DNA of 52,252 nucleotides, from positions 1 through 52,252 of the forward strand of contig CALLFZ010000048.1 of assembly GCA_938010045.1 (NCBI GenBank). The letters are read 5' to 3'. Shown in pieces: positions 5,535 through 14,691 of the stretch. Both the position numbers and the translations under genes were made by a program. The stretch comes from an uncultured bacterium (GTDB lineage Bacteria > Verrucomicrobiota > Kiritimatiellia > PWTM01). The notes under the pieces are model-generated. The model was given only the letters and a program-made list of their open reading frames with translations. It was not told where the DNA came from and ran no database searches. Numbering within the stretch: the stretch's first letter is position 1; each line of letters opens with the position of its first letter.

Positions 5535-7106
5535 TCACGACGGGGACGATGGAGGCTGGGGCGCGGGCGTTTCCGCGCTGGTGAGGGCAAGGTACAGCGC
5601 ACGGGCGACCCACGCATCGGTCGCAGCATAGCGGATTTGCGCTGCGGTGAGTTCGGAGCGCCCCCAGTTCGATCGTTGGACGCCCTTAGACACTCGGAAC
5701 CCGAGCACAGCGGCGGCCAGGCCGCGCGTGCCGGTTTTTCGAAATCCCATGCGGGCGGCGAGCGTCGCGATGTCCACGAACCCAGCCGGCTTCAGCGGAT
5801 GCAATTCCGCGAGTTTGCGGAGGTCCTGCTGCAGGGCGACGCCGGCCTTGATGATCTTGTCCGATTCAAACAGCCGCCACAGCGCCGCCAGGTCGGAGAG
5901 TTTCGCCGGGCGGACGAGAAACACCTCCTCGGCTGTGGCCAACTGGATGAGCGAAATCGGGTACGACTCACCCGGACGGAACGCTGGACGGGACTCGGTG
6001 TCGAAGCCCAATACCCGCGCATCCGTGAGGGTGTTCAGCGCCTCGGGCAAATCCTCGTCACGTTCGATGACGCGGATTGTGCCCTCGAACCATCGCAGCG
6101 GCAATTGATTGATTTCTTCGTCTGAGAGATGGGAGGGCCATTTGCCCGAGATTTTTGGGGTGGGGGGAGGCGATGTGGGCACTTCCGCCGCTGGCGTGCG
6201 GGATTCGTCGGTGCCGGCTGAGCGGGATGGGCGGCGAGGGGGCGGAGCGGTGCGGGGTGGTTCCTCCGAGGGAGGAGGGTGTGTGAGGCCCAATTTCGCC
6301 TCGAATTCGCGCAGCGCGGCGCCGCTCAGCGGATTCTCCCGGCCGGCGACCATCTCGCGGAGAACAGCCACCTCGTCGGACGAAAAACGGCGCCCGTTGA
6401 GCACATGTCGCTCAAAGGCGGCATAGGCGAGCGGGGCGACGGCCTGTGCGATGCGGGCGATGGCCTTCGCATACTCTCGGATCTCCCATTGGGCGTGAGG
6501 ATCGAGCCGAAGCTCGAGGAAGTGAAACAGGTTGTGAAGGTCCATCTGCCAGTACCACTGGGTGTAGACCGAGAGCGGCAGGTTGATGCGCGCCAGTTCT
6601 CGAGCCACACCGCGGTGGAGCAAAAGCTGGTAGGTCTCGTAGGCCGCCTGTTGCTCCTGCAGTAGTAGGTCGAGTACTTCGCGTTGGACCTCGGGCGGAA
6701 GTTCCTCCGGGTCGCGGCCCTGTTTGTTGTCACGGGACTGCCGGCGAATCTGGGAGGCAGGCGGTAGGTAGAATTCGTCGGCGAGGACGCTGTACCGGCC
6801 CGAGATCTCGTTGATCCGCGCGGTCCGGTGGCGGATCCACTGTCGCGCGACGAAGATGGGGAGCTTGCAGTGCAGCTCGATCACGACGTGTTCGAAGGGT
6901 GAGGTGTGTTGGTGGCGCATCAGGTAATCAATCAACGCGCCGTCGTCCCGGACGGATTTCGTGCCCCGGCTATAAGAGACGCGCGCCGCCTGAACGATGC
7001 GCGCATCGCCTCCCATATAATCCACGAGCCGCACAAAACCCTTGTCCAGCACCCGGATCTCCTTGTCGAGGAGCGCCTCGGCGGCCGGCACCACCACGTG
7101 TCCCAT
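5535..7106 (-). CDS. thyX: FAD-dependent thymidylate synthase (ThyX) fused to DEDDy 3'-5' exonuclease
   Basis: A single 523-residue reading frame carries two enzymes. Residues about 15-275 are ThyX, which makes dTMP from dUMP with methylenetetrahydrofolate, FAD and NADPH; the signature RHR-X7-S is at 92-102 (RHRTARINEIS). A proline-rich linker (about 275-325) leads to an RNase D/WRN-type exonuclease (about 335-510). Its DEDDy residues are visible: FDTES (D369, E371), QQD (D428) and YAATD (Y493, D497). The ATG at 7106 has a GGAGGA ribosome site 9 nt upstream. Sequence beyond it only mirrors the gene on the other strand. Both halves look catalytically intact. Normal ThyX proteins are about 220-300 residues and have no nuclease. 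The gene is divergent from an inositol-monophosphatase-like gene. Confidence 0.92.
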   Translation of the reverse strand: MGHVVVPAAEALLDKEIRVLDKGFVRLVDYMGGDARIVQAARVSYSRGTKSVRDDGALIDYLMRHQHTSPFEHVVIELHCKLPIFVARQWIRHRTARINEISGRYSVLADEFYLPPASQIRRQSRDNKQGRDPEELPPEVQREVLDLLLQEQQAAYETYQLLLHRGVARELARINLPLSVYTQWYWQMDLHNLFHFLELRLDPHAQWEIREYAKAIARIAQAVAPLAYAAFERHVLNGRRFSSDEVAVLREMVAGRENPLSGAALREFEAKLGLTHPPPSEEPPRTAPPPRRPSRSAGTDESRTPAAEVPTSPPPTPKISGKWPSHLSDEEINQLPLRWFEGTIRVIERDEDLPEALNTLTDARVLGFDTESRPAFRPGESYPISLIQLATAEEVFLVRPAKLSDLAALWRLFESDKIIKAGVALQQDLRKLAELHPLKPAGFVDIATLAARMGFRKTGTRGLAAAVLGFRVSKGVQRSNWGRSELTAAQIRYAATDAWVARALYLALTSAETPAPQPPSSPS

Positions 7107-7185
7107 CGTCGCGAATCCTCCGTCAGTGCACACTGCCGGGTCCCCGATTCGCCCATGCCGGCGAGCCGGGGCGCGGCGTTTTCGG

Positions 7186-7214
7186 TTGAATGTACGCCGT
7201 CCGGAACCTAGAGT
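7186..7214 (+). promoter_or_regulatory. Candidate promoter of the monophosphatase/MFS genes
   Basis: TTGAAT (7186-7191) and TAGAGT (7209-7214) are spaced by 17 bp in the divergent intergenic region, giving a leader of about 40 nt before the ATG at 7260. Confidence 0.4.
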
Positions 7215-7259
7215 GAAGCGCCTTCGCCCTCCGGCGGACCCGTGGCGGGGGCGCAGACC

Positions 7260-8057
7260 ATGAAACACATGTCCGACAGCGATTTGTTGGCCGTCTGCGT
7301 CGAGGCCGTGCGCGCAGCGGGAGGCCATGCTCGCGCGAATCGTCGGCGCCGGCGCGAGACCGTCGAGGTGGCGGCGCACGATGTGAAACTGGCGCTTGAC
7401 GTGGAGTCGCAGGCGGCGGCGGCCGCCGTAATCCGCCGGCGTCATCCGAGTCATGCGCTGCTGGGCGAGGAGCGGGGATTGGACGAGACCGGCGAGTACC
7501 GGTGGGTGATTGATCCGATTGATGGCACGGTCAACTTTGCGCACGGGTTGCCGTACTGGGCCTCGTCGGTGGCGGTGCAGGTCGAGGAGCGGACGGTGGC
7601 CGGTGCGATCTGGCTTCCGGACCTCGACGAGCTGTACACGGTGACGGCGAGCGGGCCGGCATACTGCAACGAAAGGCCGATTCGGGTGTCGGAGGAGACG
7701 GAGCTGTCGCGCTCGATCGTCTACACCGGGATGATCGAGCAGGAGGGGGATCGTGGAGTCTCGCTGCGGGTGACCGAACGGTTGGCTTCGGTGGTGAGGA
7801 AGTTGCGTATCCTGGGGTCGGCGGCCGCCGAATTGTGCTACGTCGCGTCGGGACGAGGCGAGGGGTATGTCGAAACCTCGATTCACCTGTGGGATGTCGC
7901 GGCGGGTGCGCTGCTGGTGGAGCGGGCGGGGGGCCGCTGCGAGGTGCTTCAGAAGCTGGGCGGCCATACGATGAGGTTTCTGGCCACCAACGGCCGCATT
8001 CACGACGCGGCGCGTGAGGTGATCTGTCCCGCCCTAGAGGGCGTGACCGCTTCGTGA
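7260..8057 (+). CDS. Inositol monophosphatase family phosphatase
   Basis: The 265-residue protein carries the metal-dependent sugar phosphatase signature. The LLGEE glutamates are at about 69-71, the DPIDGT motif at 85-90 binds metal and activates water, and the second motif LWDVAAGALLVERAGG lies near the C-terminus. Members hydrolyse inositol-1-phosphate, histidinol phosphate, PAP or fructose-1,6-bisphosphate in the cytoplasm, and which of these applies is not clear from sequence. The ATG at 7260 is chosen; a GTG at 7242 and an ATG at 7269 are also in frame and no strong ribosome site separates them. The stop overlaps the GTG start of the MFS gene, so the two are translationally coupled. Confidence 0.85.
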   Translation: MKHMSDSDLLAVCVEAVRAAGGHARANRRRRRETVEVAAHDVKLALDVESQAAAAAVIRRRHPSHALLGEERGLDETGEYRWVIDPIDGTVNFAHGLPYWASSVAVQVEERTVAGAIWLPDLDELYTVTASGPAYCNERPIRVSEETELSRSIVYTGMIEQEGDRGVSLRVTERLASVVRKLRILGSAAAELCYVASGRGEGYVETSIHLWDVAAGALLVERAGGRCEVLQKLGGHTMRFLATNGRIHDAAREVICPALEGVTAS

Positions 8058-9298: not shown

Positions 9299-9304
9299 GA
9301 GTAG

Positions 9305-9385
9305 CGGTTGGGGTGCTGCTCGGCGACGAGCGGCTGAGAACATACCCATCGAACCGGATCCGGATAATGCCGGCGCAGGGAACCG
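9305..9385 (+). ncRNA. TPP riboswitch (THI element)
   Basis: The conserved thi-box parts are present in order. P1 is CGGTT (9305-9309) closed by AACCG (9381-9385), followed by GGGGTGCT, CTGAGA (9334-9339), ACCCATCGAACC, GGATCCGGATAATGCCGGCG and CAGGGAA. TPP binding to this element lowers expression of thiamine genes. A small CCCCGG/CCGGGG hairpin at 9406-9421 lies between the aptamer and the thi4 ribosome site (AGGAG at 9444-9448). There is no T-run terminator, so control at translation start or by Rho is more likely than intrinsic termination. Confidence 0.95.
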
Positions 9386-9455
9386 TGAACCGAGAATCCG
9401 AAAACCCCCGGTGGCCCGGGGCCCCGCCCGCTCGGTCATGCGCAGGAGAACTCGC

Positions 9456-10229: not shown

Positions 10230-10857
10230 CCGCTTTGGCCTGTATTTGATCCTCACGGAGCCGGTGGTCGGTTACGAGCTGTGCGCCGAGGCTGCCGTGT
10301 ACGAGGGCGTGGCGTGGGTGCAGCTGCGCATGAAGCGCGAGCCGCCGGAGGAACGGCGGCGGATCGCCCGTCGCGTCCGTGCGATCACGCAGGGCAGCGG
10401 CACGGGATTGATCGTCAACGACGAACTCGATCTGGCGATCGAAATTGGAGCCGATGGCCTTCATCTAGGGCAGGGCGATCCCCCCGGACCGGCCGAAGCG
10501 CGTCGGCGGTGGGGGCGGGCCGGTCTGATCATCGGCCTCTCGACCCACAACGCCGACCAGGCCGCCCGGGCGGAGCAGCTCGGTGTCGATTACATCGGCG
10601 TGGGACCGGTGTTCGCCACTCCGACGAAACCCGAGGGTGATCCGCCTCTCGGGCCCCTCGCGGCCGCCGAGGCGGCGCATCGGGCGAGCTGCCCCGCCGT
10701 GGCGATCGGCGGAATTGACGCGTCGAATCTGGCCGAGGTTCTGCGGGCCGGCTTTGTCAATTATGCGGTGGTCCGTGCGGTCTGCGCGGCGGCGGATCCG
10801 CGGGCGGCGATCCGTCGTCTTCAGACGATGTGGCGTGAGGTGCTCGGTGGCCGCTGA
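10222..10857 (+). CDS. thiE: Thiamine phosphate synthase (ThiE)
   Basis: The 211-residue TIM barrel joins the thiazole and pyrimidine (HMP-PP) moieties to form thiamine phosphate. Visible family motifs in order are VQLRMK (diphosphate binding), VNDELDLA, GLHLGQGD, GLSTHN, the YIGVGPVFATPTK stretch and AIGGI. Length is typical. The ATG lies inside the end of thi4, so it is translationally coupled and under the same TPP riboswitch. Its last 37 bp overlap the 3' end of the convergent corrinoid-activator gene. Confidence 0.95.
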   Translation: MRDRFGLYLILTEPVVGYELCAEAAVYEGVAWVQLRMKREPPEERRRIARRVRAITQGSGTGLIVNDELDLAIEIGADGLHLGQGDPPGPAEARRRWGRAGLIIGLSTHNADQAARAEQLGVDYIGVGPVFATPTKPEGDPPLGPLAAAEAAHRASCPAVAIGGIDASNLAEVLRAGFVNYAVVRAVCAAADPRAAIRRLQTMWREVLGGR

Positions 10858-12743
10858 GTCGGCGGGGCAGAGTCTGAGGCCAGCAATCTTGCGAACCTCG
10901 TCGGATCGGCATGGGGCACGAGCAGCGAGTCGACGAATTCGGTCTCGAATTTGTCGCACAGGTTGAGTTCGATCGGTTCGGCCACACGGAGGAGGCGGTC
11001 CCACTCCGCGGGTGCCGCGGGATCTCCGAGCCCTTGCAGCGCGCCACCCAGCGCGCCGTTACCGATGACCTCGATGCATTCGAGCGGCAGCTCGGGCAAT
11101 AGACCGATACGCATCGCATTGCGCAGGTGCAGATGGCGGCCGAACCCGCCCGCGAGGATGAGACCATCGAGGTCGGCGGGGCCACAACCGGCAAGGTGCA
11201 GCAACGTCATGATGCCGGCGTGGATGGCCGCCTTCGCTTTGAGAGCCTCGGCGATGTCCGCTTCGGAGAGAATGACCGGCACGCCGTGGGCGGAGGCTTC
11301 CGACGGCGCGATGACCACCGCGTGCACCGGGTGACCGGCCTGCCGGATGACGACCGCCGCCCCCCGACGGTCGAGTGCGGCCGTGTCGAGGCGCCCTGTC
11401 GAGTCCATGAGCCCTGCCTGCGCGAGTTCGGCCAGGGCGTCCACGACCGCGGATCCGCAGAGGCCGGCCGGTCGCGCGCCTCCGATGGTTTCGTATTCGA
11501 AGTGATCGCCTCGCCACCGCAGGCGCTCGACTGCCCCCTCGTCCGCGCGCATGCCGCAGCTCAGTCCCGCGCCTTCAAACGCGGGGCCGGCGGCGGTGGC
11601 GGTGCAACGCAGGTGGTGGCCGTCCCAGAAAAGGATCTCGCCGTTCGTTCCAATGTCCACCAGTAGCCAGCGGCCGCGCCGTTGAAGCAACCCGGCCACA
11701 GTGGCGTCGGCCGTGAGATCGCCTCCGATGTGGCCGGACAGCGAAGGAACGGCCTCGACCCAGGCGAGCGGGCCAACGGCGAGCCCCAGGCGTTCTGCTC
11801 GCAACAACGGGTATCGGCGCACGACCGGCCGAAACGGGATTCGGCCGATGCCGTGGGGCGGTAGACCGAGGGCAAGGTGCTGCATGACGGTATTGCCCGT
11901 GATGACGACGTGCAGAATGTCGTCGGCGGAGCGACCGGCGGAGACGCAGAGGCGTTGGATCAACTCGTTGATGGTCCCGCGGACGAGTCGCTGCAGTTCC
12001 GCCACCCCGCCGGGGGTTTCCGCGGCCGTGATCCGCGACGCGACGTCTGCCCCGCGCGAGAGTTGGGCGTTATAGTCGGAGGCGTTCGCGAGCTGGCGGC
12101 CCGATGCCAGTTCCACCAACGCCGTGACGACGGTGGTGGTGCCGATGTCCACCGCAAGACCGAGCGGCTGGCCCGCGGTTGCGGCTCGCGCTCCGCCTGC
12201 GAACGCGCGACCATCGCGTTCAATCCACCACACGTCGCTAGCGTCCGGGCGGCCGAGCCCCATCGCGATCTCGGAAACGGCTTCGATGCCGAACTCGACA
12301 TCGTCGGCGTACTGAAGAATGGCGTCGCGGGCCAGTTCGACATCGGACGTGGGCGAGCCAAGCGGATCGGCGGGTCGCCGGAGCGGAGCCCGTTGAAGAC
12401 GGCTCTTCCATACGCGGAGCGAGATGGCACAGTCCGCGACCATCCGGCCGGATTCGATGCGGCGCGATGAAGCCGGGATTTCGAACTCGCATGGTGTGCC
12501 CTCGAGCGGCGTCATCTGGCAGGCGAGAGCGCGACGCGGATGGGACGGTTCGGCGGTGAGCTCGGCGTTCCGCCCTCGGAAATGGCCCGACTGCAGCACC
12601 ACCGCGCATCGTCCACATCGCCCGCGGCCGCCGCAGACGGTGTTCAAGGGCCAATCGGCCCTGGCCGCGATGCGATCGAGCGTCTCCCCCGGATCCGCCA
12701 CCACCTCACGCCGCTCGCCGCCCAGCCGGACGGTGACGATCAT
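10821..12743 (-). CDS. Reductive activator of corrinoid proteins (RACo-like, ferredoxin + DUF4445 ASKHA)
   Basis: The 640-residue protein starts with a 2Fe-2S ferredoxin domain (cysteines at 37, 43, 46 and 75). A linker follows, then the large ASKHA ATPase domain typical of RACo, with the phosphate loop VDIGTTT near residue 210 and DIGTNGE and ILAGGFG motifs later. RACo proteins use ATP and a low-potential electron to return inactive Co(II) corrinoid proteins to Co(I) so that methyl transfer can continue. Start at the ATG 12743; upstream in-frame sequence mirrors the corrinoid gene. It is 20 bp downstream of the corrinoid protein gene, its expected partner. The N-terminus is directly the ferredoxin, with no signal peptide, so it is cytoplasmic. 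Confidence 0.9.
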   Translation of the reverse strand: MIVTVRLGGERREVVADPGETLDRIAARADWPLNTVCGGRGRCGRCAVVLQSGHFRGRNAELTAEPSHPRRALACQMTPLEGTPCEFEIPASSRRIESGRMVADCAISLRVWKSRLQRAPLRRPADPLGSPTSDVELARDAILQYADDVEFGIEAVSEIAMGLGRPDASDVWWIERDGRAFAGGARAATAGQPLGLAVDIGTTTVVTALVELASGRQLANASDYNAQLSRGADVASRITAAETPGGVAELQRLVRGTINELIQRLCVSAGRSADDILHVVITGNTVMQHLALGLPPHGIGRIPFRPVVRRYPLLRAERLGLAVGPLAWVEAVPSLSGHIGGDLTADATVAGLLQRRGRWLLVDIGTNGEILFWDGHHLRCTATAAGPAFEGAGLSCGMRADEGAVERLRWRGDHFEYETIGGARPAGLCGSAVVDALAELAQAGLMDSTGRLDTAALDRRGAAVVIRQAGHPVHAVVIAPSEASAHGVPVILSEADIAEALKAKAAIHAGIMTLLHLAGCGPADLDGLILAGGFGRHLHLRNAMRIGLLPELPLECIEVIGNGALGGALQGLGDPAAPAEWDRLLRVAEPIELNLCDKFETEFVDSLLVPHADPTRFARLLASDSAPPTQRPPSTSRHIV

Positions 12744-12763
12744 CGAAACTGGGGCCAGCGGAT

Positions 12764-13393
12764 TCAGCCGGCGAGGCCGAGGCAGCGCTCGACCACGCGC
12801 ACGGCGGCGCCGGCGTCCTCCCCATAGCCGTGTGCGCCGATCTCGTCGGCGTATTCCTGCGTGATCGGCGCGCCGCCGATGATGATTTTTACGCCTTTTT
12901 CGCCGCGGAAGTGGTCGGCCACGGTCTTCATGTATGGCATCGTGGTGGTGAGCAACGCGCTCATCAGCACGGCCTGCGCCCCGTCGTGGACCGCCTTTTC
13001 GAATTTGGTCACATCCACGTTGGTTCCCAGGTCGATCACATGGAACCCGGCACCTTTCAGCATCATCGCGACGAGATTCTTGCCGATGTCGTGGAGGTCG
13101 CCCTTGACCGTACCGATGCAAATGGTGGCGCGCGGTTCGTGTCCGCTCTTCGCGAGCAGGGGCTCGAGTATTCGTAACCCGGCGTCCATCGCCCGCGCAG
13201 CAATCATCATCTGCGGAATGAAGATCTCCTTGCGGGAATACCGCTCGCCGACGTCGCGCATCGCCGGGATCATGGTTTCGGTGAGCAATTCGGCCGGACT
13301 GCGCCCCGTGGCAAGTTCTTGCTGCAGAATGGTCTCAACCGCTCCCTTGTTCCCGCCGGCGATCGCGGCGTACAGTGCCTCATGCCGTGCCAT
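12764..13393 (-). CDS. Methyltransferase corrinoid (cobalamin-binding) protein
   Basis: The 209-residue protein has the two-domain build of MtaC/MtbC/MtvC-type corrinoid shuttles. It has an N-terminal helical cap (about 1-85) and a Rossmann-like B12-binding domain with GDLHDIGKNLV at 98-108, where His101 is the lower cobalt ligand, followed by an IIGGAPIT motif near the end. Such proteins carry a methyl group on cobalt between a substrate methyltransferase and a tetrahydrofolate or CoM methyltransferase. The ATG at 13393 follows a GGGGGTGG ribosome-site-like run. The reactivating RACo gene follows after 20 bp, but no methyltransferase gene is next to it, so the methyl donor (methanol, methylamine, methoxy-aromatic, betaine) cannot be named. 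Confidence 0.92.
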   Translation of the reverse strand: MARHEALYAAIAGGNKGAVETILQQELATGRSPAELLTETMIPAMRDVGERYSRKEIFIPQMMIAARAMDAGLRILEPLLAKSGHEPRATICIGTVKGDLHDIGKNLVAMMLKGAGFHVIDLGTNVDVTKFEKAVHDGAQAVLMSALLTTTMPYMKTVADHFRGEKGVKIIIGGAPITQEYADEIGAHGYGEDAGAAVRVVERCLGLAG

Positions 13394-13418
13394 GCGCCAC
13401 CCCCTTCTATTGCAACGT

Positions 13419-13844
13419 TCAGACCGCGCCCGAGCCGCGGCGGTCGTCGACATCTTGCAGGATATCCGTCATTCGGTCCAGCGCGGCCTGAATGGTGGCC
13501 ATTTCCTCTCGAATGCGCTCGAATCGAAGTGAATGGTCAATGCGAAGCTTTTCCAAATAGCGTTTGCGGTCCAACACCTCTTCCATCGTGACCTGGAGTC
13601 GCTCGACCTTCGCCTTGAGCGCGGCCTCTTCGGTGGAGTCGCTCGCGATCAGTTCCGTCTCCGAACCCGGCGGCGCAATTGCCTGTTCTTCGCGGGTGGG
13701 CACCTGCATGCGCTGGCCGCAGTCGGGACAGGTGACGATGAGACCTGCGCCGCGTTCGTCAATGCCGAGACTTTTGCCGCACTTCGGGCATTCGAAGAGG
13801 ATGTCGTGCTCCGTAAACCCTGGCGGCAGATCCTGCTGGTTCAT
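13419..13844 (-). CDS. Small zinc-ribbon and coiled-coil protein
   Basis: The 141-residue protein has a zinc ribbon at about residues 18-46 (CPKC and CPDC pairs, with a GAGLIVTCPDCGQ core). A short acidic linker and a long heptad-like helix (about 75-130, rich in Glu, Leu and Arg) follow. The ATG at 13844 has GAGGTGA 5 nt upstream. It opens the corrinoid operon and ends 25 bp before the corrinoid protein. No function can be assigned from sequence. The zinc ribbon is of a general type found in many bacteria, and the position may be coincidental or may point to an accessory role. Confidence 0.75.
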   Translation of the reverse strand: MNQQDLPPGFTEHDILFECPKCGKSLGIDERGAGLIVTCPDCGQRMQVPTREEQAIAPPGSETELIASDSTEEAALKAKVERLQVTMEEVLDRKRYLEKLRIDHSLRFERIREEMATIQAALDRMTDILQDVDDRRGSGAV

Positions 13845-13866
13845 AGCGTCACCTCGTTCAGTTCTC

Positions 13867-13895
13867 AGCATAGCGAGGCCTCAGGGGGGCCGCAA
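13867..13895 (-). promoter_or_regulatory. Candidate promoter of the corrinoid operon
   Basis: On the minus strand TTGCGG and TATGCT are exactly 17 bp apart. The -10 ends 22 bp before the ATG at 13844, leaving a short leader that contains the GAGGTGA ribosome site. No cobalamin riboswitch fits in that leader. Confidence 0.45.
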
Positions 13896-14055
13896 GCCGC
13901 TAGGGGCGAGCCGTTGCCCGGAGCGGAGCGAGAGGGCCGCTGCGGCGGCGCACTCCACAGCCGATGGGGTGGATCGGTCTGAATGTTGGCGAGCAGACCT
14001 CCATGCTCGGCTCTTGGCCCCGCTCTGCGAGGGCTGTGAGGGTCGGCTCGCGGTG
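13896..14055. other. Divergent intergenic region without a visible gene
   Basis: This part of the gap between the corrinoid operon and the Nudix gene holds no convincing reading frame and no B12-box pattern. It contains GC-rich imperfect repeats of low information. Confidence 0.5.
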
Positions 14056-14085
14056 TTGCGGCCGGACACGCGGCCGCGGTAATGT
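14056..14085 (+). promoter_or_regulatory. Candidate promoter of the Nudix gene, giving a leaderless mRNA
   Basis: TTGCGG (14056-14061) and TAATGT (14080-14085) are 18 bp apart. The -10 ends only 6 bp before the GTG start at 14092, so transcription would begin at or next to the start codon. This agrees with the lack of any ribosome binding site there. Confidence 0.35.
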
Positions 14086-14091
14086 GGGCGG

Positions 14092-14691
14092 GTGAACACG
14101 GAGAGCGCGGCGCCGGGGTCTCTGCGTGAATGGCCGCGGCCTGGAACGAGGGAATGGACGCGCTGGTGGGCAGCCTGGACGCCGCGTGAGCGGGCGACGC
14201 TGATGCTCGTGCGCCGCGACGGTCAACTCCTGTTGATCGAAAAACGTCGAGGCCTGGGGGCGGGCAAGGTCAACGCTCCGGGCGGACGGATCGAAGCCGG
14301 CGAATCTGAAGCGGACGCGGCGGTGCGGGAGACCGTCGAAGAGGTTCGTCTTCGACCCATCTCGCCGCGGTTTCGCGGCCGGCTCCAGTTTCAGTTCACG
14401 GATGGATACTCGATCGAGGCGGCGGTTTTTCTTTCCGATATGTCCGAGGGCGAAGCCGAGGAGACTCCCGAGGCGCGCCCGTTCTGGGTGCCGCTCGACA
14501 AAATTCCCTATGAGCGGATGTGGGCGGACGACCACCTCTGGCTGCCGCTGGTGCTCGCGGGGCACATCGTGCAGGGTTGCTTTTTGTTCGACGGCGACCG
14601 GATGCTCGCGCACGAAGTACGATCCTCCCCCTTCGGAGGGCCAAGCGGCCTGAGCCACGCGGGCCGAGCCGACGGGCGAGAAGGAGGTTAG
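14092..14691 (+). CDS. Nudix hydrolase (MTH1/8-oxo-dGTP diphosphatase-like)
   Basis: The 199-residue protein holds a Nudix box at about residues 65-87 (GGRIEAGE...RETVEEVRL), with the catalytic REUXEE glutamates intact but Arg where the box usually has its last glycine. The stretch before it (RGLGAGKVNAPGG) resembles human MTH1 and bacterial 8-oxo-dGTP diphosphatases, which remove oxidised nucleotides. Nudix enzymes hydrolyse nucleoside diphosphates linked to another moiety using Mg2+. The GTG at 14092 is the only good start. The last codons contain the AAGGAGG ribosome site of the next gene, 1 bp downstream. Confidence 0.85.
   Translation: MNTESAAPGSLREWPRPGTREWTRWWAAWTPRERATLMLVRRDGQLLLIEKRRGLGAGKVNAPGGRIEAGESEADAAVRETVEEVRLRPISPRFRGRLQFQFTDGYSIEAAVFLSDMSEGEAEETPEARPFWVPLDKIPYERMWADDHLWLPLVLAGHIVQGCFLFDGDRMLAHEVRSSPFGGPSGLSHAGRADGREGG

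Follow-up and report, generated by a model that had tools for sequence, protein, structure and literature searches.

Why would a corrinoid protein and its reductive activator be encoded with no methyltransferase beside them? This question is raised by contig CALLFZ010000048.1 of an uncultured Kiritimatiellia bacterium, which is 52,252 nucleotides long (the window). In the 3.2-Mb genome to which it belongs, 98% complete and in 49 contigs, the window is contig C48. Its minus strand carries an operon of the order zinc-ribbon protein (ZR)-corrinoid protein (COR)-RACo, spanning positions 13844-10821. We propose, with a probability of roughly two in three, that COR and RACo form the centre of a corrinoid methyl-transfer system whose genes are dispersed and whose core is most likely a split B12-dependent methionine synthase. 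All three open reading frames (ORFs) of the operon were found:

13419..13844, minus strand: ZR, a 141-amino-acid (aa) protein with a zinc ribbon and a long helix, encoded first in the operon
12764..13393, minus strand: COR, a stand-alone corrinoid protein (PF02607 + PF02310) of 209 aa
10821..12743, minus strand: RACo, an ATP-dependent reductive activator (Fer2 + Raco_middle + RACo_C_ter/DUF4445)

The intergenic gaps, calculated from the ORF ends, are 25 bases between ZR and COR and 20 bases between COR and RACo, and the three genes are presumably cotranscribed. The gene identities, order, coordinates and tight spacing given in an initial annotation of this DNA were all recovered. Its statement that no corrinoid methyltransferase adjoins the operon also held locally: none was present among the ten flanking frames scanned, and in genome-wide searches, which did not include MtmB and MtbB, C48 had no MetH-type, PF06253, MtaB or UroD match except COR. 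In a crude scan of positions 10600-14300, the minus strand showed nothing like a terminator, and no site resembling a promoter (sigma-70 consensus only) was detected; no cobalamin riboswitch was found within the window (Rfam, gathering thresholds).

COR consists of a B12-binding_2 and a B12-binding domain and contains the sequence DLHDIGK, which we take to be its corrinoid-binding motif. Its best NCBIfam match was "methyltransferase cognate corrinoid protein" (170.6 bits, below the cut-off of 215.3), its best solved chain was 1y80, and it was the only B12-binding_2 (PF02607) match found in the genome. RACo, the only PF14574 match in the genome, has the complete domain set of a RACo/DUF4445 activator. 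Its Fer2, middle and ASKHA C-terminal regions aligned over residues 13-618 with its best solved chain, PDB 3zyy.

The initial annotation noted that no substrate or THF methyltransferase is encoded nearby. Likely partners are encoded in trans, although not all families were represented elsewhere in the genome. Searches of the genome for PF06253 (MttB/MtgB family) and PF12176 (MtaB) gave nothing at E values up to 1, and partners of these types were rejected; candidates were found on C3, on C34 and in the UroD family. The MetH model matched four separate places, namely homocysteine domains on C3 and C11, a pterin domain on C34, and COR. None of these matches covers the C-terminal activation region, and no intact MetH was found. 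The C11 homocysteine domain is fused to MTHFR, and the C3 one is a stand-alone protein of about 300 aa. The C3 protein, assigned through its match to the homocysteine region of the MetH model and not through PF02574, scored 250 bits with the HMT-MTHFR model, 173 with MetH and 104 with the stand-alone homocysteine S-methyltransferase model, all below the cut-offs. Its NC and GGCC stretches, presumably the zinc cysteines, align with Thermotoga maritima MetH. The C34 protein is a stand-alone pterin-binding methyltransferase (PF00809) that matched methyl-tetrahydrofolate (methyl-THF):corrinoid methyltransferase with 167 bits, and no dihydropteroate synthase model was among its matches at E 1e-5. 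A DUF1638 protein is encoded on C10. UroD matches over the cut-off lie on eight other contigs, with an additional sub-threshold match on C21. Because the C24 UroD gene scored best and has haem-synthesis neighbours (judged by eye), it is probably HemE. The C36 UroD protein carries a C-terminal thioredoxin_3 domain (UroDTrx), and a further UroD candidate is on C20.

From these genes and domains, and from the operons and co-occurrence in relatives described below, we infer the following reactions, their direction and their methyl donor. Co(I)-COR would take a methyl group from 5-methyl-THF via the stand-alone pterin-binding methyltransferase (C34), and methyl-COR would pass it to homocysteine via the stand-alone homocysteine methyltransferase (HcyMT; C3). 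Co(II)-COR would be reduced back with ATP by RACo, probably together with DUF1638 (C10). Since no second protein like COR was found in the genome, UroD-family methyltransferases, notably C36 UroDTrx and C20 UroD, probably also act on COR as alternative methyl donors. For a hub used by several enzymes, there is no need to be encoded next to a particular one, and this would account for the "orphan" layout.

Gene clusters in relatives are in agreement with such a system. Seven genomes of the class outside the window's family (f1) have a COR of the window clade (G010, G012, G013, G014, G023, G040 and G046), and in four of them the COR-RACo cluster includes an HcyMT gene of the C3 type in the same orientation. 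The initial annotation had held that a same-strand methyltransferase gene beyond COR-RACo in a related genome would speak against its view, and this is what these four class-mates have. The clusters, together with two that contain a more distant COR, are as follows:

G012: COR-RACo-HcyMT-UroDTrx-CobW
G014: COR-RACo-MtaB-HcyMT-DUF1638
G023: COR-RACo-HcyMT-(protein without Pfam match)
G046: COR-MtaB-UroD-RACo-HcyMT, plus a CobW-like gene
G013: COR-RACo-DUF1638
G040: COR alone, with RACo and DUF1638 together elsewhere
G010: COR match that holds a stop
G011 (more distant COR): COR-HcyMT-folate methyltransferase
G026 (more distant COR): COR-HcyMT

Genes outside the window were predicted with a codon-usage finder, which missed some (e.g., at L156, L250 and L040), and the orders at key loci were taken from tblastn coordinates. 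As a separate observation, an AraC-type regulator is divergent from COR in several class-mates, and none stands beside the window COR:

L162:7387-8595: AraC-type regulator, PocR sensory domain found
L164:10466-11692: AraC-type regulator
L165:10427-11656: AraC-type regulator
L163 and L233: AraC-type regulator also present

Phylogenetic trees were built for COR and for the homocysteine domain. The window COR grouped with the CORs of G012, G014, G023 and G046 in a clade of 21 rows (SH-aLRT 99 by a quick method), and the Pontiella COR was placed among the class-mates, which suggests Kiritimatiellota. In the homocysteine-domain tree (41 rows, after matches of less than 200 residues and MTHFR-only loci had been dropped; none of the forks cited is starred), the C3 protein belonged to a 22-row set (support 87; 24 rows at 94) together with the operon proteins of G011, G023, G026 and G046. 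The operon proteins of G012 and G014 were just outside this set, and the HMT-MTHFR protein of the same genome was far from C3 on a long branch.

We also examined the neighbours of the nearest CORs at 80 public loci, counting genes that lie within 7 kb and on the strand of COR. At least one tested methyltransferase was present in 47 loci; MttB was not among the queries, and loci with RACo only may have one. A homocysteine domain was found in 9, MTHFR in 10, a folate methyltransferase in 17, UroD in 29 and RACo in 23. A homocysteine domain and RACo occurred together in 0/80 loci within this span, so that the COR-RACo-HcyMT combination is seen here in the window's class and not in those loci.

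A survey covered 58 genomes (the window's own, three congeners, five of the family and 49 of the class), queried with COR, ZR, UroDTrx, the C3 protein, DUF1638 and RACo; set memberships were transcribed by hand, and the P values for co-occurrence ignore genome relatedness. RACo was present in 34/58 genomes, and a stand-alone COR in exactly those 34. COR was counted at an identity of at least 41%, and G050 was included on the basis of two pieces that lie on separate contigs; COR frames were not inspected individually, and the open frames of G024 and G034 are longer. One further COR-like domain, in G036, shares an 833-aa frame with a homocysteine domain. DUF1638 exceeded its cut-off in 25 genomes (a weak G020 match was left out), a C3-type HcyMT was found in 27 (identity of at least 49%, not in a MetH- or MTHFR-length frame) and a full-length UroDTrx in 13, all of them among the 34 RACo-positive genomes; three of the 13 UroDTrx matches hold one stop codon. 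The genomes G003 and G012 are 68-69% complete. The survey also brought up apparent two-part split MetHs, in which a stand-alone homocysteine domain is near an 840-1000-aa frame with a B12 domain (G008:C157, G013:C87, G033:C39, G040:C36, G044:C149 and G049:C17); in G008, G033 and G049, this pair adjoins a frame of HMT-MTHFR length.

Several observations weigh against a split methionine synthase as the core of the system. MetE is encoded on C38, so that the corrinoid route is not needed for methionine, and some relatives own both a COR-RACo system and a (split) MetH. No HcyMT reached the C3-type cut-off in 7/34 RACo-positive genomes (G021, G024, G025 and G057, and also G033, G034 and G037, whose weaker matches at 41-45% were left out of the count), and none adjoins COR in G013, G040 and G010. 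The C3 protein scored 222 bits with the betaine-homocysteine methyltransferase model, under its cut-off, and might, judged from its sequence, use betaine without a corrinoid. The best solved chain of the C34 protein, 4o0q, is named dihydropteroate synthase (94 bits), and methyl-THF:corrinoid methyltransferases scored 77-86; the C34 type was searched for in the window's own genome only. Finally, the four window-clade HcyMT clusters contain no folate methyltransferase and have MtaB, UroD, UroDTrx or the Pfam-less protein instead, which means that methyl-THF may not be the donor. The methyl donor is thus the least certain step: the window-clade clusters offer MtaB, UroD and UroDTrx, and the window's own genome offers C34 and UroDTrx.

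The same clusters raise the possibility of a mainly UroD-type demethylation, in which UroDTrx and/or the C20 UroD would transfer methyl to COR from some other compound, perhaps a sulfur compound or a redox-active one, with homocysteine as the acceptor via C3 and without folate. The fusion protein on which this possibility centers is encoded as follows:

G000:C36:87218-88585 (L173:8716-10086), minus strand: UroDTrx, UroD family plus thioredoxin-like domain

Across phyla, UroDTrx is found with genes for COR, CobW and HcyMT. The G012 cluster holds an orthologue that is 59% identical over 452 residues, G025, G037 and G057 have the order COR-UroD(C20-type)-UroDTrx, one Armatimonadota contig (L040) carries COR, UroDTrx, CobW and HcyMT, a second one (L080) COR-UroDTrx-HcyMT, and a Fusobacteriota contig (L067) UroDTrx with CobW, RACo, DUF1638 and COR. 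In Pontiella sulfatireligans (L007), UroDTrx is 8.5 kb from COR-RACo-DUF1638. In addition, 13/13 genomes with a full-length UroDTrx have RACo, and the lack of a folate methyltransferase in the window-clade HcyMT clusters fits this view. On the other hand, the genome of the window keeps a good methyl-THF:corrinoid methyltransferase match (C34), full-length UroDTrx is absent from 21/34 RACo-positive genomes, and the activity of UroDTrx is uncertain since it lacks a histidine of the MtaA zinc site. We thus regard UroD-type demethylation as possible, though unlikely, as the main function.

The altered site was seen in every orthologue aligned. In an alignment made through 4ay7, the position of the MtaA histidine, which we take to be a zinc ligand, is a phenylalanine (FVCG) in 17/17 distinct UroDTrx orthologues including our own, to which the other 16 are 41-87% identical. 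Both site cysteines and the CxxC thioredoxin motif are kept in all 17 (CAPC in 15, CPPC in 1 and CAAC in 1). L012 and L055 were excluded from this count, being ordinary UroD proteins with 25-27% matches and without the thioredoxin part. UroD S-methyltransferases are described as His-Cys-Cys and O-methyltransferases as having other ligands (PMC10418091). The conserved departure from His to Phe, combined with a redox domain, suggests from sequence an unusual donor or a redox-gated step. Our literature searches found no paper evidently on a UroD-thioredoxin fusion, and one may still exist. A possible, though less likely, reading is that UroDTrx represents an uncharacterized class of corrinoid methyltransferase which, with COR, RACo, CobW and a MetH-type HcyMT, would form a folate-independent route from an unknown, possibly redox-activated donor to homocysteine, here via the window COR. 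As a recurrent and testable candidate for a new methyl donor arm, the fusion is the part of this system worth following up.

The other two explanations that we weighed concern the operon itself. COR and RACo could be a true orphan pair that works with a new kind of methyltransferase and has ZR as its dedicated partner, in line with the initial annotation, which had named ZR as a possible partner. ZR has two CxxC pairs with weak zinc-ribbon matches, and its single-sequence AlphaFold2 model (pLDDT 82, pTM 0.36) shows short strands in residues 15-47 and a single helix of ~70 residues (69-138). Within f1, ZR adjoins COR in 7/8 COR-bearing genomes with short gaps, and it is about as conserved as COR (89% for both in G001; 85% for ZR and 79% for COR in G002). 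The adjacency of ZR and COR held within the family, but outside f1 it was found in 0/17 genomes counted with both genes, ZR and COR being on different contigs in 16 of them and ~11.5 kb apart in G049. Furthermore, full-length-type ZR matches (at least 100 residues matched, E ≤1e-8, leaving out G056 with a weak match holding a stop and G046 with 96 residues) occurred in 25/34 genomes with RACo and in 17/24 without it, and ZR and RACo were independent over the 58 genomes (Fisher p = 1.0, genome relatedness ignored). In other places, judged by eye, ZR stands next to glycosyltransferases, an aminotransferase, genes of a secretion type or mevalonate genes. Two mevalonate-type genes precede ZR-COR-RACo in G005 and G008, whereas in G022 the same two genes precede ZR without COR; ZR therefore seems to be an older neighbour that COR-RACo joined. 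Because of its independence from RACo and its unrelated neighbours, we rejected, as the default reading, that it is a dedicated COR partner. ZR is most likely a general protein that was drawn into the operon in one family, and a role in COR function inside f1 is conceivable. With known methyltransferase families encoded in trans as well, an orphan pair is very improbable. The locus could also be a relic, with MetE making methionine and COR-RACo decaying after the loss of MetH. Apart from MetE itself, this would fit the presence of MetH or split MetH pieces in the f1 relatives G002, G004, G006 and G008 and not in the window's own genome, the lower conservation of RACo than of COR within the genus (48-67% versus 73-89%) and a stop codon in the G002 RACo match. 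However, all three window ORFs are open, COR is 89%, 79% and 74% identical in the three congeners, and stand-alone COR coincides with RACo in 34/34 RACo genomes, so that we hold decay to be highly doubtful. Taken together, the observation made in the initial annotation stood, and its interpretation was supported in part: a missing partner, or ZR as that partner, was not supported. A corrinoid operon that looks orphaned can be central to a system whose genes are scattered, and finding no methyltransferase next to it says little in favour of a new partner.

The surroundings of the operon are of mixed content. The ten flanking frames encode an oxidoreductase, a ThyX/exonuclease protein, an inositol monophosphatase, an MFS protein, Thi4, ThiE, a NUDIX protein, a heparinase II/III, a squalene/phytoene synthase and an amine oxidoreductase. 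A thiamine pyrophosphate riboswitch (9299-9398, plus strand) is upstream of the Thi4 and ThiE genes, and ThiE and RACo end tail-to-tail with a 37-base overlap. The ThyX/exonuclease protein is encoded by a single open frame (5535-7967, minus strand), in which an RNase D-like 3'-5' exonuclease domain comes after the ThyX domain, and may be a fusion with an over-long start.

In comparison with known systems, we consider the COR-RACo locus to be a dispersed member of the known split, RACo-dependent kind of corrinoid methyl transfer, ordinary in kind and informative in detail. The window RACo resembles RACo of Carboxydothermus hydrogenoformans, which we take PDB 3zyy and 4c1n to be, in its aligned Fer2, middle and ASKHA regions. 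The partner of the C. hydrogenoformans protein is the corrinoid iron-sulfur protein of the Wood-Ljungdahl pathway. A three-component methylotrophic system (MtaABC, MttBC or MtgBC) would call for PF12176 or PF06253, both without a match in this genome. The folate-independent "core" methionine synthases MesA-MesD (Price et al. 2021, PMC7857596) also methylate homocysteine, and the predicted methyl source of MesA-C is a corrinoid protein; these enzymes are relatives of the MetE catalytic domain, whereas the C3 protein belongs with the homocysteine domains of MetH. Type 1 mlp clusters (Kountz and Balskus, PMC10418091) share with our system a corrinoid protein, a reductive activase, UroD-family methyltransferases and the lack of a clustered folate methyltransferase. 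However, such a cluster has two or more Mlp (UroD) genes beside those for corrinoid protein and activase, and at least Mlp2 and Mlp3 are clustered with the corrinoid gene there, whereas here the UroD matches listed are on other contigs, and our UroDTrx lacks the histidine of the His-Cys-Cys zinc site.

In Ruegeria pomeroyi, one corrinoid protein is common to methionine synthesis and betaine demethylation (Mausz et al. 2025, PMC12478193). Its MtgC/MtgD/MtgE system is similar to ours in having a single corrinoid hub, homocysteine methylation plus a second methyl substrate, and genes that are not all together. Unlike R. pomeroyi, whose donor enzyme is MtgB (PF06253), the genome of the window has UroD-family candidates. 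In its parts, the system is like that of Phaeobacter inhibens, in which DUF4445 and DUF1638 were cofit with the three parts of a split synthase in mutant fitness data (Price et al. 2018, PMC5764234). Both organisms have separate PF02574-type, PF00809 and B12 proteins together with DUF4445 (here on C48) and DUF1638 (here on C10), and no MetH activation domain was found, nor an intact MetH here. The P. inhibens COR, HcyMT and DUF1638 genes have neighbouring locus numbers, whereas the parts are scattered here over five places on four contigs (C3, C34, C10 and C48), and its mutants need added methionine, whereas MetE is present here. Overall, the split, RACo-dependent kit for homocysteine methylation, shown by genetics in marine Alphaproteobacteria, would thus extend to another bacterial class.

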